Below are positions 24,366 through 32,454 of a stretch of DNA of 64,000 nucleotides, piece after piece (within the stretch, counting starts at the first letter, position 1; each line of letters begins with the position of its first letter). The position numbers and the translations under genes were made by a program. Below the pieces are notes generated by a model that saw nothing but the letters and a program-made list of their open reading frames with translations, had not been told where the DNA came from and searched no databases. Origin of the DNA: Thiohalorhabdus sp. Cl-TMA (lineage in GTDB: Bacteria > Pseudomonadota > Gammaproteobacteria > Thiohalorhabdales > Thiohalorhabdaceae); contig NZ_JBGUAW010000008.1 in assembly GCF_041821045.1 (NCBI RefSeq), positions 124,001 to 188,000 of the forward strand, in the 5' to 3' direction.

Positions 24366-24830
24366 ATGGGAGCACCACCGCGCCAGATCGCCCAGAACAA
24401 GAAGGCCCGCTTCGACTTCCACATCGAAGAGGAATTCGAGGCCGGCATCGAGCTGCAGGGCTGGGAGGTGAAGGCCCTGCGGGCCGGGCGGGCGAACATC
24501 AAGGAAAGCCACGTCATCATCCACCACGGCGAGGCCTTCCTGGTGGGCGCGCGCATCTCACCACTGCCCGAGGCCTCCACCCACGTGAGCCCCGACCCCA
24601 CGCGGACCCGGCGGCTGCTCCTGCACGCCCGCCAGCTCCGGACCCTGATCGGCCAGACCCAGCAGAAGGGATTTGCCATCGTGGCCCTGGACATGCACTG
24701 GACCCGCGGCCTGGCCAAGGTGCAGATCGCCCTGGCCAAGGGCAAGAAAAAGCAGGACAAGCGTGCCGACATCAAGGAGCGCGACTGGCAGCGCCAGAAG
24801 CAACGGCTACTGAAGGAAAAGAACCAGTAG
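24366..24830 (+). CDS. smpB: SsrA-binding protein SmpB
   Basis: SmpB binds tmRNA and delivers it to stalled ribosomes for trans-translation. The 154-residue protein has the expected length. It contains [43 protein letters not shown], the [26 protein letters not shown] core, and the basic C-terminal tail KDWQRQK-like [13 protein letters not shown] that enters the decoding channel. AAGGAG precedes the ATG. The tmRNA gene lies about 300 bp downstream on the same strand. Confidence 0.96.
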
Positions 24831-25133: not shown

Positions 25134-25494
25134 GGGGGCGATTCTGGATTCGACGTGAACCCGCAAGCTATTGGTGCATGCCGAGGTAGCTGGGTAACCT
25201 CGTAAATCCTCCCAGCGGGCAAAGATACCTGCCGACAACGAAGAGTTCGCCGTAGCCGCATAGCCGGCTGCCCCGCTTCCCGAGCTGCCCGTGGCAAGGG
25301 ATCAAGCGGGTCGACCTTCACGGGACCGCGGCAGCGCCCCGCCCGGGGCCACCTGCCGTTAAATCCAATCCGGGCTAACCGGTCACATCCCCGTCACCCG
25401 GGACCGTGATCGGTGAAACCAAAGGGTGACTAAGCATGTAGATCCAATAGTGGACGGTTCGCGGACGCGGGTTCGAGTCCCGCCGCCTCCACCA
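25134..25494 (+). ncRNA. ssrA: Transfer-messenger RNA (tmRNA)
   Basis: tmRNA rescues stalled ribosomes and adds a degradation tag. The 5' end GGGGGCGATTCTGGATTCGACG and the 3' end with GGTTCGAGTCCC and an encoded CCA pair into an alanine-type acceptor stem: G1-G7 pairs with 25484-25490, including the G3-U identity wobble. The tag reading frame runs from 25231 (GCC) to the TAG at 25261-25263 and encodes ADNEEFAVAA, ending in the protease-recognised AA after a hydrophobic residue. Length is about 361 nt. It lies downstream of smpB and has its own terminator. Confidence 0.96.
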
Positions 25495-26344: not shown

Positions 26345-28036
26345 CTACCGGCCCGACCCCTGCGCGGCCTTCGCCGCCTTGCGTAATGCGCTGGTCAACC
26401 GTCCGCCAAGGGCCTCACGATAGGTTTCCAGTCCCGCGGCCACCTGCTCCCGAAGCCAGTCCTCGAACAGGGGATGAGGCACGAAGCCCTTGCCGAGCTC
26501 GAGCTCGAGGCCCTTCAGGAATTCCTCCGCGTGACCGGTACCGGTAGTGCGCGCGGGAACAACGATGGCCCGCCCGCCGTCCGCCGCGGCCTGGCGCACC
26601 AGCTCCCGCACGCGCCCCACCGCGGCCTGCCGCTTTTCCGACCAATCCTCCCGCCACGTGGCCACACGGATATGGCGGAAGGCATCCCCGCCGTGCGCCC
26701 GCATGCGCTCGGCAAGCCGCTCCAGGGTCTCCAGCCAGGCCTTGTTGGCCTTGTCCTGGCCCACCCCGTGGGCCACCAGGATCACGGACTCCCGCTCGGG
26801 ATCCGAGGAGTGCGCTTGGGCACGGTCGAGGAGGGCCCGGGCGAACAAGGGATGGGCACCCAGGCCGCCCACCGTGAGTGCCTGGGCGGTGGTGCGAATA
26901 CGCTTCGGGGGCGGCCCCGAGCTGCCGCCGTGGCCGACCATGCCGCCAGCGGCTGCAACCCCGCCGGTGCCCTCGATGTCGCGGCCGAGCATGCGCCGGA
27001 TGGTGTCCCGGAACGAGGTCTCGCGTCCGAACACCCGGACCAGCAGGATCAGGCGGGCCCCCTTCGCCTCCAGACGCTCCACGGCGGGCTCGATGGTGCG
27101 CTGGTCGGCCATGGAGAAGGCGAAATCCAGCCGATAATCCTCGGCCAGCCCAGCCGCCGCCCGTCGCATGCGCTCGTTCCAGTGGTAGTCGGCGCCGTGG
27201 GCGTGGAACAGCACGCCGATGTCGTCGGCGGCGAGCGGCAGGTGCCGGTTGGCCTCGCGCAAGGCCCAGGTAGCCACCGCGTCGTGGGGCAGGAGCCCGG
27301 AGAGGACTCGGCCCTTGTCGCCCATGCGCCGTTGCCAGGAAGCGGTGACGTTCATGCGGCTGTCGTACTTGGGCCCGAGGTGGAATGGCGCCAGAACCTT
27401 GGGCTCGGGGCCCTGGCGCAGCCCCCTGACGGTGGCCCCGGCGCAGCGGGTGTCGCCGGCCTTGCCGTGGGCGGGCCACACCTCGGCCGTCACGGAGGCG
27501 AAGCCGAAGCCCCTGGCCGCCTGTCGCGCCAGTCGGGCCAAACCCTCGCGCATGGCCCCGCAGCTGGCCTTGTCCCCGGCTCCGTAGCCAGCCACCACCA
27601 AGTGCTTGTCCGCGGGGGAGCGGACGTTCCGGAGCCGATCGGCCAGCACTTCCACGGCCAGATAGCTGCGGCCGAAGACTCGGCCCCGGTCGACCGTGTC
27701 CGCCTTCAGGCCAGCCATGACCACTTCCAGGGTATCGAAGGCCGGGCTGCCCTCGGACAGGAACAACGGCAGCACCGTCACCGCCGACACCTGCTTTCGC
27801 AGGTCCTCGACGTCCGAGGCGAGCATGTCGCCGGTGCGGTCGTCGGTAACGAACAGGAGACGGGCAGGGTGGCGCTCCGACAGCTTGTCGAAGACCCGGC
27901 GTGCCTGCTCGTTGCCCAGAAAGCCCCGGTCGGGCACGGCCAGCACGAAGCCGTGAGCGGCCTCGCCGGCCAGGGTCGTTGACGAAAAGCCCGGGGCCAC
28001 TAAGAGGGCCAGGACCCAAATGGCTCGAATCATCAT
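26345..28036 (-). CDS. Secreted multi-lobed CbiX/SirB-like chelatase-family protein
   Basis: The ATG at 28036 follows GAAGGAGGACC and gives 563 residues. An N-terminal signal (IRAIWVLALLVAPGFSSTTLA) predicts export, unlike cytosolic sirohydrochlorin chelatases. I see four alpha/beta half-domains of the CbiX/CbiK type, as if two bilobal chelatases were joined: lobes near 28-110, 145-230, 272-345 and 416-510. Lobe 1 has VTVLPLFLSEG. Lobes 3 and 4 keep the candidate metal-ligand histidines in GVLFHAHGAD (H278, H280) and ILVAHGVG (H423); lobes 1 and 2 have LAVPDRG and VAGYGAG instead. A Gly/Ser/Pro linker lies near 355-380. It is in an operon with a TonB receptor and a PepSY protein. Role inferred: periplasmic handling of a metal or tetrapyrrole. 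Catalysis is unproven. Confidence 0.75.
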   Translation of the reverse strand: MMIRAIWVLALLVAPGFSSTTLAGEAAHGFVLAVPDRGFLGNEQARRVFDKLSERHPARLLFVTDDRTGDMLASDVEDLRKQVSAVTVLPLFLSEGSPAFDTLEVVMAGLKADTVDRGRVFGRSYLAVEVLADRLRNVRSPADKHLVVAGYGAGDKASCGAMREGLARLARQAARGFGFASVTAEVWPAHGKAGDTRCAGATVRGLRQGPEPKVLAPFHLGPKYDSRMNVTASWQRRMGDKGRVLSGLLPHDAVATWALREANRHLPLAADDIGVLFHAHGADYHWNERMRRAAAGLAEDYRLDFAFSMADQRTIEPAVERLEAKGARLILLVRVFGRETSFRDTIRRMLGRDIEGTGGVAAAGGMVGHGGSSGPPPKRIRTTAQALTVGGLGAHPLFARALLDRAQAHSSDPERESVILVAHGVGQDKANKAWLETLERLAERMRAHGGDAFRHIRVATWREDWSEKRQAAVGRVRELVRQAAADGGRAIVVPARTTGTGHAEEFLKGLELELGKGFVPHPLFEDWLREQVAAGLETYREALGGRLTSALRKAAKAAQGSGR

Positions 28037-28083: not shown

Positions 28084-28275
28084 TCAAAAGCGATCGGGAA
28101 GGGTGGCGCGTGCCCCGATCAACAGGGACACGACGGTGGGTATGGTCAGCGCCGCCCAGGAGAGGACATCGCCGAATCCGTCGGAGAGCAGGGCGGCCAC
28201 CAAGCCGATCCCGGAGAGCAGGGCCAGCGCCAGCGGAGCGCCCCAGACACGGCCTCTGGGTCCGGCCCGGGTCAT
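28084..28275 (-). CDS. Small two-helix membrane protein of the TonB/PepSY operon
   Basis: I do not recognise this 63-residue protein. After a basic start (MTRAGPRGRVWG) it has two hydrophobic segments, about residues 13-30 and 37-54, and ends with a short charged tail. Its ATG overlaps the stop of the PepSY gene by four bases (28272-28275), strong evidence that it is translated and coupled. The chelatase-like gene follows 48 bp later. Small membrane partners of this size are common next to PepSY proteins in iron uptake operons. I infer a role in the same inner-membrane complex. Confidence 0.72.
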   Translation of the reverse strand: MTRAGPRGRVWGAPLALALLSGIGLVAALLSDGFGDVLSWAALTIPTVVSLLIGARATLPDRF

Positions 28276-29417
28276 GGCGTCCGCCCCCGGGATTCAGGGC
28301 CATTCCCGGGTCGCGGGCCGGCTTCAACGGACCGGCCGCCGTTGCGCCGCAGCCAGAGGTAGAGGCCGGTAACCAGGACACCGATGGCAAGCAGGTCCAG
28401 AAGCCCCCACAGGATCTTCAAGGGCAAGCCGCCGTAATCGCCGAAATGCAGCGGCTGCGATAGCAACAGGGCGCTTACGTACCAGGGGAGCCCGCGCGTG
28501 GCGACAACCTCGCCGGTATCGGCATCGATCATCACCGGGGTCAGCAGCTGTGCGGTCAGCGGCGTGGTGCCCTGCATGTAAGCCATGAAGTGGCCATCGC
28601 CGGTGAAACCGTTGCCCGGGAAGGCCATGAAGCTCAGCGCTTTGTCCGGCTGGGCCCGGCGGGCGGCCGTCACCGCCTCGGCCGGAGATCGCTCGGCCAC
28701 AGTGTCGTCCCCCGTCGCCCCGGCGGTCATCTCGGCAAGCTGAGTGGATTGCCACTGGCTGAAGATGGGCACCGACAGGGTATTGACTACTCCTGTAAAG
28801 CCCACCACAAGCACCCAGACCAGGGTGGCCATGCCCACCAGGTTGTGGGCGTCCAGCCAGCGCAGGCGCCTTGTTTGCCGGCGCACCCGGCCGAAGCCCG
28901 CCCGCCCCAGATAGGGGGCGTACAGCACGGCGCCGGACACCAGGGAGGCCACCAACAGCAGCCCCATCGCTCCCAGGAACAACGTCCCCCACAGCCCCGC
29001 GAACATGTCCACGTGCAGGCGGAGGATGACATTCATGACCCCCTGCCCCACCGGGTAGGCGTTCAGCAGCTCGCCGGTGCGGGCGTCGTAGGTCAGGAAC
29101 GACGAGGCCTCGGTCGCCTCCACGGTCTCGCCCAGGCGCACGAACCACAGATCCGGATGTTCCGGCTCGCGCACTAGGAACTGGACAACCTCGTCCGGCC
29201 GGCGCTCCCGTGCGTCGGCCAGGATGGCATCAACTTCCGCCCGCTGCCCCGAGGCCTCGACCGCCGGGGCGCTCACGCGGTAGCCCAACGCCCGGTCGAT
29301 CTCCTCGTGGAAGATCAGCGGCAGCCCGGTCACGAACAGCAGCAGCATGAATACGGTGCAGATCAGGCTGGTCCACTTGTGCACCCGGTACCAGCCCTTC
29401 AGGCGCCTTCCGTTCAC
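28272..29417 (-). CDS. PepSY-associated TM-helix (PiuB-like) inner membrane protein
   Basis: Members of this family, called PiuB or PepSY_TM, accompany siderophore receptors and are thought to reduce or release iron at the inner membrane. The GTG at 29417, with GGAGGG five bases upstream, gives 381 residues. The first helix follows the typical WYRVHKWTSLI motif. Further membrane segments are near 145-170, 200-220 and 345-365. Periplasmic PepSY-like stretches include FLTYDARTGELL and PVMIDADTGEVVA. Conserved histidines occur in LRLHVDMF, WLDAHNLVGM and SQPLHFGDYGG. It lies downstream of the TonB receptor and overlaps the next small gene. Confidence 0.9.
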   Translation of the reverse strand: MNGRRLKGWYRVHKWTSLICTVFMLLLFVTGLPLIFHEEIDRALGYRVSAPAVEASGQRAEVDAILADARERRPDEVVQFLVREPEHPDLWFVRLGETVEATEASSFLTYDARTGELLNAYPVGQGVMNVILRLHVDMFAGLWGTLFLGAMGLLLVASLVSGAVLYAPYLGRAGFGRVRRQTRRLRWLDAHNLVGMATLVWVLVVGFTGVVNTLSVPIFSQWQSTQLAEMTAGATGDDTVAERSPAEAVTAARRAQPDKALSFMAFPGNGFTGDGHFMAYMQGTTPLTAQLLTPVMIDADTGEVVATRGLPWYVSALLLSQPLHFGDYGGLPLKILWGLLDLLAIGVLVTGLYLWLRRNGGRSVEAGPRPGNGPESRGRTP

Positions 29418-29495: not shown

Positions 29496-31697
29496 TTAGT
29501 AGGTGACACTATAGGAGGCGCTCAGGGTCCGGCCGCGGCCGGCGAACACATAGCCAGCCAGGTTGTAGGCCTGACCCAGCGGCGTGATGTACTGCTCGTC
29601 GAGCAGATTATTGATACCCACCTCTAGGCTGCCCGGGCCCACCTCGACGCGACCACTAGCGTCAACCAAGGTGTAACCGTCGACCTTGCCCTTGGCGAAC
29701 GCATCGCTAGCAGGCAGAGCAGCTGAGTCGAAACGATCGCGGTCGAACACCTGCTTGGCCTGCAGGCGTGCGGACCAGCGCTCGGTTGGGGCATACTCGC
29801 CGTACAGGGTCAGTTCCGGCGGCGCGATCCGGGTACCATCCAGGTACTCGTCGGTATCGCCGTCGCTGTCGGTGTCCACGCGCCCTTCCTGCCAAGAGGC
29901 GGTGCCGCCCAGCCGCAGGGCGCGGGTGGCGTCCACGTCGGCGGTCAGCTCCACGCCGTAGATCTGCTCCTTGCGCCGGAGCAACGGGAAGTTGGGCGGG
30001 CCGCCGAAGGTGGCGCCCTGATCGGAGACGCTGTAGTAAGCGCTGGCGCTTGCCCGCCAGGCGTTGAAGCGCCCCCGCCAGCCGATCTCGTAGTTGTCCA
30101 CCACTTTGGCTTCTGACTCGAAATCCTCCGCCTCGATGTCGTTACCCGCCGGGATTTCATTGTCGATATCCGCACTTTTTGTGCGAAGCTGGCGACCGAT
30201 GTCGGCTACCGAGAAGCCCTGGCTGAAGCTGGCGAACAACTCCTGCCGGTTGGTCAGGTAGTGCACCAGGCCCGCGTTGAAAACGGTCTCGCTATAGCTG
30301 AGCTTTCCTCCCAACACGGTATGGGAATCCTGCCAGCCTTCATCCTGGAAGGTGGGCACATCGATCTGCACGCGCTCGTGGCGAACCCCGCCCCGCACTA
30401 ACCAGTCCTGGCCCAGATTGGCCTGCAGCTGCAGGAAGGGCGCGTAATTCACCTGGTCGAGCTCACCCACGCTGGTGCGGCCGTCCACGAAGCTCTGGGA
30501 GGAGGTCTCTGTGCCAACATCGATGCCGTAGACGGCGTTGGCGCTCTGACCGATGGACCGGTCGTGGGCCAGCCGCACGCCGGTGTGCTGGGTCTCCAGA
30601 TAGGTCTGCCCGGCCCCGGTGGTGTAATAAGGGTAGTAGCCAAAATCAGTACGGTAGTCCTGATGGTAGACCTGGGTGGACAGGGTACCGCCGAGCAGGT
30701 CCTGCCAAGTGTGGTCCAGGCTGATATTGAGGTTCTCGGTGCCGGGATCGATACCTTCCGGCTCCTCGTCGAGGGCCTGGGTGGCCTCATCGGTATCGGG
30801 ATTGCCTCTGCCTGGATCCGTCTCACCAGGGCGGCGGTGTTCGGCATCCTGGGCATGGTCGTAGTAGTTGATCGCCAGCCGCAGGCGCTGGTCGGGAGTC
30901 AGCTGGTAGCCCAGCTTGGTCTGCAGGTTGTACTCGCGGGACTCGGCGAGTCCACCGCCCTGGGAGCCGAAGTTGGGCGGGATGAGGTCTCCCTCACCGT
31001 CGTACCAGCTACCGGTGTCCCTAACACTCAGGTTGACGCTATAGTCGAAAGCGCCCGTGTCGCCGCGGAAGGCCTGGTAGAGCCGGCCGCCGAAGCTGTC
31101 GCTGTCCTCCATCTGGCCAGTGACGCCGACCGTGGTCTGCATTTCGGTGCCGTCAAGGCCCTGGCCACTTTTGGTAATGAAGTTGATGATGCCGCCGGTG
31201 GAGCCCGCGCCGTAGGTGGCCACGGCCCCGCGAATGACCTCGATGCGCTCGATGGCCCCCGGCGAAACGCTGCGAAGGTGCTTGAAGGCCTGGCGCAGCA
31301 CGGCGTTCTGGGGCACGCCGTCGATCATCACCAGGAAGCTGCGGCCGCGCATCTGCTGGCCGTAGTTGGTCAGGCTCTCGGAAGACTGGCCCAGACCAGG
31401 CACCAGGTTGGACAGAATCTCGCCCAGGTCCTGCGTGGTACGGGTCTGCTTTTCGATCTCCTCTCGGTCGATCACGGTCACCGAGCCGGGTATATCGGCG
31501 ATAGAGCGTCCCTGACTGGTGCGCGTGGTGGTCACCGTGATGGATTCCAGATCTTCGCTATCCGCCAGGGCCTGTCCCGGCGCGACCGCGAGGCCGGACA
31601 GCGCGAGGAGGAGCAAGGGGTTCCGGACGGACGGCCGCCGGCCCATGGATTGGAGGCGGACAGCAGCCGTATTGCGGCGCCTGCGTGGGGGAGCCAT
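29496..31697 (-). CDS. TonB-dependent outer membrane receptor
   Basis: This receptor imports a scarce ligand, probably a ferric siderophore, across the outer membrane using TonB energy. The ATG at 31697 has GGGAGGAAG upstream and gives 733 residues; an ATG at 31721 lacks this support. A long basic signal peptide (about 1-45, ending GQALA) is followed by a TonB-box-like ESITVTTTRT. The plug domain contains IPGSVTVIDREEIE, GLGQSSESLTNYGQQMRGRS and GAGSTGGIINFITKSG. The barrel ends in the aromatic residue Y (SASYSVTY). A Fur-box-like site overlaps its promoter. It starts the operon receptor - PepSY - small membrane protein - chelatase-like protein. The ligand is unknown. Confidence 0.94.
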   Translation of the reverse strand: MAPPRRRRNTAAVRLQSMGRRPSVRNPLLLLALSGLAVAPGQALADSEDLESITVTTTRTSQGRSIADIPGSVTVIDREEIEKQTRTTQDLGEILSNLVPGLGQSSESLTNYGQQMRGRSFLVMIDGVPQNAVLRQAFKHLRSVSPGAIERIEVIRGAVATYGAGSTGGIINFITKSGQGLDGTEMQTTVGVTGQMEDSDSFGGRLYQAFRGDTGAFDYSVNLSVRDTGSWYDGEGDLIPPNFGSQGGGLAESREYNLQTKLGYQLTPDQRLRLAINYYDHAQDAEHRRPGETDPGRGNPDTDEATQALDEEPEGIDPGTENLNISLDHTWQDLLGGTLSTQVYHQDYRTDFGYYPYYTTGAGQTYLETQHTGVRLAHDRSIGQSANAVYGIDVGTETSSQSFVDGRTSVGELDQVNYAPFLQLQANLGQDWLVRGGVRHERVQIDVPTFQDEGWQDSHTVLGGKLSYSETVFNAGLVHYLTNRQELFASFSQGFSVADIGRQLRTKSADIDNEIPAGNDIEAEDFESEAKVVDNYEIGWRGRFNAWRASASAYYSVSDQGATFGGPPNFPLLRRKEQIYGVELTADVDATRALRLGGTASWQEGRVDTDSDGDTDEYLDGTRIAPPELTLYGEYAPTERWSARLQAKQVFDRDRFDSAALPASDAFAKGKVDGYTLVDASGRVEVGPGSLEVGINNLLDEQYITPLGQAYNLAGYVFAGRGRTLSASYSVTY

Positions 31698-31727: not shown

Positions 31728-31758
31728 TTTATATTGAACAATAATCCTAATGAAAATC
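31728..31758 (-). promoter_or_regulatory. Predicted promoter with overlapping Fur box
   Basis: On the minus strand TTTTCA (31756-31751), a 17-bp spacer and TATAAA (31733-31728) form a sigma70-type promoter about 30 bp upstream of the receptor ATG. The plus-strand sequence AATAATCCTAATGAAAATC at 31740-31758 matches 13 of 19 bases of the Fur consensus GATAATGATAATCATTATC and covers the -35 box and part of the spacer. This placement fits repression by Fur-Fe(II). I did the comparison by eye. Confidence 0.68.
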
Positions 31759-32454
31759 GTTTTTATTTACAAAAAAGACTCAGCCCGCTCCTGAAGGACA
31801 TCCCCGACTCCATAAGGACTGGATGGCCTGAACCGACCCGGGCATGGTCCGGCCGGAATCTTGGAAGCGTTTACGGGGTTGGAGCTGACGGGAGGTACAT
31901 GCGCGGAGGATCTGTGCCCGGGATACTTCTCTTTTTGCCTTTTCCGGACAAATCGAGTCCATGATGCAAGGGATCAGCGTCTGGATTTTGCAAGGTCCTC
32001 GACCACCTCTCCCACATAAATACTTCATACTTTTTAAAGATTTTCTGCTTTCCGAAGCTCATAATAAATACCCCCCCCTTAAAAATAAAACAGATATTAT
32101 CTGACCCCCCGAAAAAAACAAAAATTTAAAAAGAAAAAACAAGTACCAACAAAACATACACTAAAAAGCAAAGCCCTCCTCATATCCGTAAATATCTTTC
32201 GCATCAAGAGCCCCGGAATGGCCCTATCCGAATTCCGCATTCTCCTCATGCTTTCGGAAAGCGACACCATCCCCGATATAAGAGCCAAGGACTGCGGATC
32301 ACGGCAAGAGGGCTGGAGGTGCTCGATGAACGGAACGCCGAAGCGGAGGCTGAACGGGATTCCAGCTGACACCCGGATATCCCCCGCTTTCCGGACCCGG
32401 CAGGGGCCCGCTTTACAATGCCCGCCTACCTTTTATCGGACCGCGCTAGCGCAC
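31759..32454. other. Non-coding stretch with a strongly AT-rich core
   Basis: No convincing gene lies in this roughly 700-bp gap. The core, about 31975-32215, is rich in A and T runs and contrasts sharply with the surrounding GC-rich DNA. It contains two C-runs (8 C at about 32071-32078, 6 C at 32105-32110) around a perfect 13-nt palindrome CAGATATTATCTG (32091-32103). Short frames on the minus strand (for example ending at 32097, with a phenylalanine-rich end) look like chance. It may be a regulatory region or the scar of foreign DNA. Confidence 0.5.

Follow-up and report, generated by a model that had tools for sequence, protein, structure and literature searches.

The window, a stretch of 64,000 nucleotides from Thiohalorhabdus sp. 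Cl-TMA, contains a minus-strand operon in which genes for a TonB-dependent receptor, a PepSY_TM membrane protein and a 63-residue membrane protein precede a gene for an exported chelatase-like protein, here called CbiX4. The features of this region are, in coordinates of the window:

26345-28036, minus strand: CbiX4, an exported protein of 563 aa with two class II chelatase-like units in tandem and its ATG at 28036
27968-28036, minus strand: predicted signal peptide, residues 1-23, with a putative cleavage site, from the sequence and the leaders of homologues
27239-27967, minus strand: N-terminal chelatase unit (N unit), lobes 1-2, residues 24-266; nearest folds are ferrochelatases
26393-27238, minus strand: C-terminal chelatase unit (C unit), lobes 3-4, residues 267-548; nearest folds are SirB, CpfC, periplasmic CbiK and FetB
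27197-27199, minus strand: codon of H280 in the HAHG motif of lobe 3, invariant in 64/64 sequences of the homologue alignment
26768-26770, minus strand: codon of H423 in the AHG motif of lobe 4, invariant in 64/64 sequences of the same alignment
28084-28275, minus strand: 63-aa membrane protein, its start overlapping the PepSY stop as ATGA
28272-29417, minus strand: PepSY_TM membrane protein (PF03929, 195.6 bits), candidate haem-containing membrane reductase
29496-31697, minus strand: TonB-dependent receptor (PF00593/PF07715), upstream of CbiX4
31740-31764, no strand assigned: candidate Fur box immediately before the receptor gene, consisting of two 13/19 matches that overlap

On the other side of CbiX4, a tmRNA gene with the tag ADNEEFAVAA (25134-25494, plus strand) lies downstream of a probable smpB (24366-24830).

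The CbiX4 reading frame is intact: the ATG at 28036 is preceded by a good ribosome-binding site, AAGGAGGACC, and the stop codon occupies 26345-26347. A 681-aa ORF is the same frame merely lengthened upstream of this ATG. The initial annotation, based on the sequence alone, had proposed an exported protein, and the leader is indeed a family trait: judged by a simple cut-off on hydropathy, 56 of 59 homologues have a hydrophobic export segment ahead of lobe 1. A lipobox is found in only 2 of 59 family members. Residue n of the mature protein corresponds to residue n+23 of the full-length protein. With Pfam, a single lobe is detected in the window protein (PF01903, CbiX, residues 283-352, 24.0 bits against a cut-off of 22). 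Among homologues, two stretches pass with the same profile (L009, 49.7 bits; L011, 40 bits) and L010 reaches only 19. The CfbA nickelochelatase equivalog NF033198 gives 13.3 bits against a cut-off of 120, and a single-sequence PDB search with the window protein returned nothing useful. Three plasmid copies of the gene are annotated only as "hypothetical protein", and the label "CbiX" misleads towards cobalamin or siroheme synthesis.

The AlphaFold2 model, computed from an alignment of 64 homologues, has a mean pLDDT of 92.4 and a pTM of 0.92, and contains four lobes. Foldseek finds significant PDB matches of the model to ferrochelatases and to CbiK, the cobalt chelatase from the periplasm of Desulfovibrio vulgaris. 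In VIA-align comparisons, the N unit (mature residues 3-246) matches the ferrochelatase/CpfC structure 8aw7 with Z 16.8 over 234 residues (rmsd 3.4), while the C unit (mature residues 243-520) matches SirB 5zt8 with Z 16.4 over 235 residues (rmsd 3.1). Further matches of the C unit are CpfC (Z 14.7), periplasmic CbiK 2xvx (13.9), CbiX (13.7) and FetB 9b86 (13.1). Both halves thus have the two lobes around a cleft of a class II chelatase, with Z 16-17 to solved chelatases. The four CbiX-like lobes read from the sequence are borne out by this structure prediction, and since each half matches solved chelatases, CbiX4 consists of two complete units in tandem rather than of four loose half-domains. 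The units are internal duplicates of each other (HHalign probability 99.8, E 7e-27), with lobe 2 matching lobe 4 (E 5.6e-15) and lobe 1 matching lobe 3 (E 1.7e-6). Within a unit, profile comparison (lobe 1 with lobe 2, lobe 3 with lobe 4) revealed no convincing similarity; it is the comparison of unit with unit that shows the duplication. Profile matches to the SirB/CbiX/CfbA chelatases were also obtained (6jv6, E 5.7e-7; 6m25, E 3.5e-5).

The two units differ in their motifs. H280-G281 and H423-G424 are invariant in all 64 aligned homologues and lobes 1-2 are without these histidines in every one, so that the assignment of HAHG and AHG to lobes 3 and 4 only, originally made for the window protein, is valid throughout the alignment. 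A catalytic-type histidine in an HG loop is therefore present in the C unit and not in the N unit, where PDRG and GYGA replace the histidine motifs in the window protein. D36-R37-G38 in lobe 1 and, without a histidine, G152 in lobe 2 are invariant among the homologues, and so are E463-D464-W465 and W434. In HemH from the same genome, it is the catalytic His-Gly that aligns with the loop of lobe 2; combined with the resemblance of lobe 4 to lobe 2, this two-step alignment places H423 at the position of the ferrochelatase catalytic histidine. Lobes 3 and 4 are joined by a variable, histidine-rich loop (10.5% His against 2.4% elsewhere), which has at least three histidines in 39 of 64 sequences and just one in the window protein.

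CbiX4 is rare among relatives of the host, with matches in 6 of 369 genomes of the class. It was not found in either congener searched, one of which (G002) has an assembly that is 82% complete. A scan of 84,980 species genomes yielded 67 loci; it used peptide patterns from four sequences, and the resulting list is incomplete and may be biased. Among the hosts are ammonia oxidisers (Nitrosomonas, Nitrosospira, Nitrosovibrio) and nitrite oxidisers (Nitrospira, Nitrospina), as well as Manganitrophaceae, one anammox bacterium, Salinibacter relatives, Thermomonas, Acidobacteria, KSB1, Ignavibacteria and others. CbiX4 is a real, well-folded, widespread and poorly annotated family. In the tree, the window protein belongs to a 29-row clade with 10 haem-receptor loci (support 100/99), where it lies on a long branch beside its nearest neighbours L034 and L036 (97/72). 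In both of these loci, the gene immediately after CbiX4, with practically no spacing, is SCO1/SenC, which could point to a link with copper or an oxidase.

Several related arrangements were encountered. One genome (G367) encodes exported two-lobed CbiX-like proteins of 337-390 aa at three loci (L013, L014, L015), most with His-rich N-termini, which form a related single-unit family. In two Nitrospira loci (L061, 13914-15439, and L070), CbiX4 and the receptor are followed by a two-lobed CbiX protein of 309-327 aa and a PepSY_TM_like_2 gene. A Nitrospirota genome has two close CbiX4 genes (L038, 6697-8487 and 9950-11683) beside an MFP/MacB-type transporter.

The neighbourhoods of the family indicate the kind of substrate. 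A TonB receptor is encoded within 6 kb of CbiX4 in 45 of 69 loci (65%), many contigs ending short; the chance expectation, estimated from seven genomes with 4-40 receptors each, is about 2-24%, related loci not being independent. Thus, the linkage to TonB receptors predicted from this one operon recurs across phyla; neither an unrelated fold nor an absence of such linkage in other genomes, the two outcomes named beforehand as contrary to the original idea, was encountered. Eleven receptors, that of L009 and ten others, were tested against the NCBI haem-receptor models TIGR01785 and TIGR01786, and eight pass the cut-off of one or the other (L009, L017, L023, L025, L026, L054, L058, L080); the receptor of L010, which is not among these eleven, does not. 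HmuY, a family of haem-binding lipoproteins, is recognised by Pfam in seven loci (L010, L037, L039, L052, L053, L060, L082) from Bacteroidota-like, Nitrospirota, Ignavibacteria and gammaproteobacterial genomes, a count that leaves out L072 and L075 (the latter seen in a first pass only). Two further matches of a custom HmuY profile (L057, L071) are cupredoxin-like by Pfam and were not counted. Moreover, hemP occurs in four loci (L009, L028 from Nitrosomonas europaea, L054, L058), FTR1/TonB/ExbBD genes in three (L009, L026, L032), and a ferritin gene in L016 as well as a ferritin-like one in L009. The set in L009 is full: hemP, tonB, exbB, exbD, a cytochrome c-FTR1 permease, a haem receptor and CbiX4. 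Of 57 loci, 24 have a Fur box of at least 15/19 matches in the 1.8 kb upstream; the expectation from a Markov model is 0.0, and the downstream control gave 3. A group of multicopper oxidases near some loci was set aside, its adjacency being inconsistent.

Taken together, the type of receptor, the HmuY, hemP and ferritin genes nearby and the Fur boxes indicate iron and haem, not cobalt or nickel. Of the three metals originally considered, iron is therefore retained, and the link of CbiX4 to iron and haem is strong for the family and moderate for the window. On account of its export, its Fur boxes and its haem-related neighbours, a role in cobalt, nickel, siroheme or B12 synthesis was rejected. 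A periplasmic insertion of cobalt, nickel, manganese or iron into imported porphyrins could be imagined from the class II fold, which is shared with the periplasmic cobalt chelatase CbiK of Desulfovibrio, and from a review according to which FetB of Porphyromonas gingivalis makes Mn-protoporphyrin (PMC13402209). Such a forward reaction is very improbable, as the Fur boxes are accompanied by iron and haem genes instead of cobalt or nickel genes, and no cobalamin neighbourhood was recognised at the CbiX4 loci.

The window operon itself is more ambiguous. By best scores its receptor is of the siderophore type (TIGR01783, 218.7 bits against a cut-off of 223.5), below every curated NCBIfam cut-off, and it stays far from those for haem receptors (TIGR01785, 123 against 316.9 bits; TIGR01786, 116.8 against 323.8 bits). 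The local substrate is thus deduced from the CbiX4 family. The PepSY_TM gene has a GTG start after AGGAGG, and its product has a weak match in a PepSY domain-containing protein of solved structure (7abw, E 1.1e-5). For the 63-aa protein there was no match in Pfam or NCBIfam. All three genes lie upstream of CbiX4 on the same strand, as originally described. However, in the congener G002 a PepSY orthologue, a homologue of the 63-aa protein and a related receptor occur together with no CbiX4 between them. This module therefore exists independently, CbiX4 having been gained in the window or lost in G002, and the 63-aa protein goes with PepSY and is not specifically tied to CbiX4. The association of CbiX4 with PepSY_TM is real and less frequent than that with TonB receptors: such a gene is nearby in just 8 of 69 loci, in addition to the PepSY_TM_like_2 genes in Nitrospira. 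The Fur-like matches upstream of the window receptor are suggestive only, about 0.4 matches of at least 12/19 being expected per 10 kb of shuffled sequence. No ABC importer is encoded in the window operon. Elsewhere in the same genome (L103, contig C13) there is a paralogous iron locus, with a receptor 66% identical to that of the window, a PepSY_TM gene, a DUF2325 protein, a bacterioferritin-like gene and divergent ExbB/ExbD; DUF2325 genes also adjoin CbiX4 in Nitrosomonas.

On the basis of these local features, the operon might serve the acquisition of a siderophore or copper: the receptor would import a metal chelate, PepSY_TM would reduce it in the way of FoxB or CrpH, and CbiX4 would hold the metal. 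A siderophore-type receptor adjoining PepSY_TM agrees with this, PepSY_TM proteins act in the reduction of ferrisiderophores or in support of copper oxidases (PMC13038864), copper operons with a TonB receptor and PepSY_TM exist (PMC12914433), and an SCO gene follows CbiX4 in L034 and L036. We nevertheless consider it improbable, because the family overall associates with haem receptors, HmuY and hemP, because a Fur-like box lies upstream of the window receptor, and because the congener's module does without CbiX4, so that CbiX4 adds something else.

The gene content of CbiX4 hosts fits haem processing only loosely. In 12 of 40 CbiX4 genomes there is no match to a FecCD permease, so that in these, if the assemblies are complete, haem cannot enter via a HmuU-type importer. 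The window's own genome has a strong FecCD gene (L087) in an apparent cobalamin cluster, with a cobU-like gene and a TonB receptor gene close by. Of the 40 CbiX4 genomes, only 20 have FTR1 or FeoB, and neither was found in that of the window. Heme oxygenase was found in 0 of 40 CbiX4 genomes; its absence was dropped as support for periplasmic processing, since with a class baseline of just 5% (7 of 143 genomes, hence absent from 95%) it is uninformative. The HemS family occurs in 3 of 40 genomes, including one isolated copy in the window's own, and no conclusion is drawn from it. As this genome encodes HemH, its haem synthesis is independent of CbiX4.

It is proposed, with a probability of about one half, that CbiX4 processes haem in the periplasm as part of a haem-uptake system that is controlled by Fur and depends on TonB, with removal of iron as the most likely activity of the protein. 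It probably handles imported haem outside the cytoplasm, and perhaps strips its iron; a catalytic role is plausible. The receptor, together with surface HmuY in some species, would bring haem into the periplasm. The C unit would hold the tetrapyrrole between its two lobes, H280 presumably lying on one side of the cleft and H423 on the other, and would most likely remove the iron by the ferrochelatase reaction in reverse, in analogy with ferrochelatase and HmuS (PMC12583661). PepSY_TM or another membrane reductase may supply the electrons, with the iron leaving as Fe(II). Some PepSY_TM proteins are known to pass electrons to periplasmic metal chelates (PMC13038864), which makes the neighbouring one a candidate donor. 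Many members have a His-rich loop joining the two lobes of the C unit, and this loop may receive the metal once it is released, while the N unit, having lost both histidines, may dock or pass on haem as a relay. The iron might then be imported by FTR1, FeoB or another importer.

The main rival to iron removal is a non-catalytic haem chaperone, which would capture haem from the receptor, buffer its toxicity and hand it to an inner-membrane importer or to periplasmic cytochromes. The N unit without its histidines would suit such a protein, and many CbiX4 hosts are nitrifiers, organisms that are rich in cytochromes. Furthermore, FetB of P. gingivalis is catalogued as a haem-binding protein, and a chaperone role is discussed for HmuS too (PMC13227078). 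Yet the invariant H423, at the ferrochelatase catalytic position by alignment, and E463-D464-W465 suggest chemistry, and several hosts are without any FecCD importer; we therefore regard a pure chaperone as rather unlikely.

Carried further, de-chelation by CbiX4 leads to a broader idea, which is tentative and has the balance somewhat against it: nitrifiers and scattered other lineages might use CbiX4 as a periplasmic haem de-chelatase driven by a PepSY_TM-type reductase, an independent counterpart of HmuS that would require no cytoplasmic haem import. How iron is released from haem in bacteria without heme oxygenase is an open question, and the activity of HmuS has been demonstrated only recently, for gut Bacteroidota. 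If the idea is true, CbiX4 would be a different and widespread candidate under the control of Fur, and its occurrence in oxidisers of ammonia and nitrite would account for the use of haem iron in organisms that are central to the nitrogen cycle.

Among known systems, the sirohydrochlorin chelatases SirB, CbiX and CfbA, which are cytosolic and have one active site per protein or dimer, share the lobe fold and the HG motif with CbiX4. Unlike these, CbiX4 is exported and has two units, one of them without both histidines. The periplasmic CbiK of D. vulgaris (2xvx, 2xvz; Z 13.9 over 222 residues) is likewise an exported class II chelatase; it has one unit and is a cobalt chelatase by its PDB title. 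It had been supposed that no comparable system was known. However, IhtA-IhtB of P. gingivalis combines a TonB receptor with an exported CbiK-like protein: IhtB/FetB is a lipoprotein encoded in a TonB-receptor operon, and a role in taking the iron out of haem has been proposed for it (PMC10913741, PMC6460266). This protein (9b86; Z 13.1 with the C unit) resembles CbiX4 as an exported class II chelatase encoded with a TonB receptor, and differs in having one two-lobed unit, a lipid anchor and an iht operon with the ABC importer IhtCDE. HmuS of Bacteroidota extracts iron from haem, shares its operon with HmuY and a TonB receptor, and is thought to face the periplasm (PMC12583661, PMC13227078). 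In apparent contrast to CbiX4, it is a class I (CobN/ChlH) protein, membrane-bound and with six domains, of which the head and neck are distantly class II-like. No CobN match to CbiX4 is among the Pfam and NCBIfam matches listed, and the chelatase fold matches listed are class II; CbiX4 may be the class II counterpart of HmuS. The CrtA-CrpH copper and FoxA-FoxB ferrioxamine operons resemble the window in that a TonB receptor adjoins PepSY_TM, whereas a CbiX-type protein is not mentioned in the available portions of their descriptions (PMC12914433, PMC13038864). No description of the CbiX4 family was found in the open-access literature. Exported class II chelatases are already known, from IhtB/FetB and the periplasmic CbiK of D. 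vulgaris; what is new, as judged from that literature, is the tandem four-lobed form, the N unit without motif histidines, the association with HmuY and haem receptors outside the Bacteroidota, and the spread through nitrifiers.
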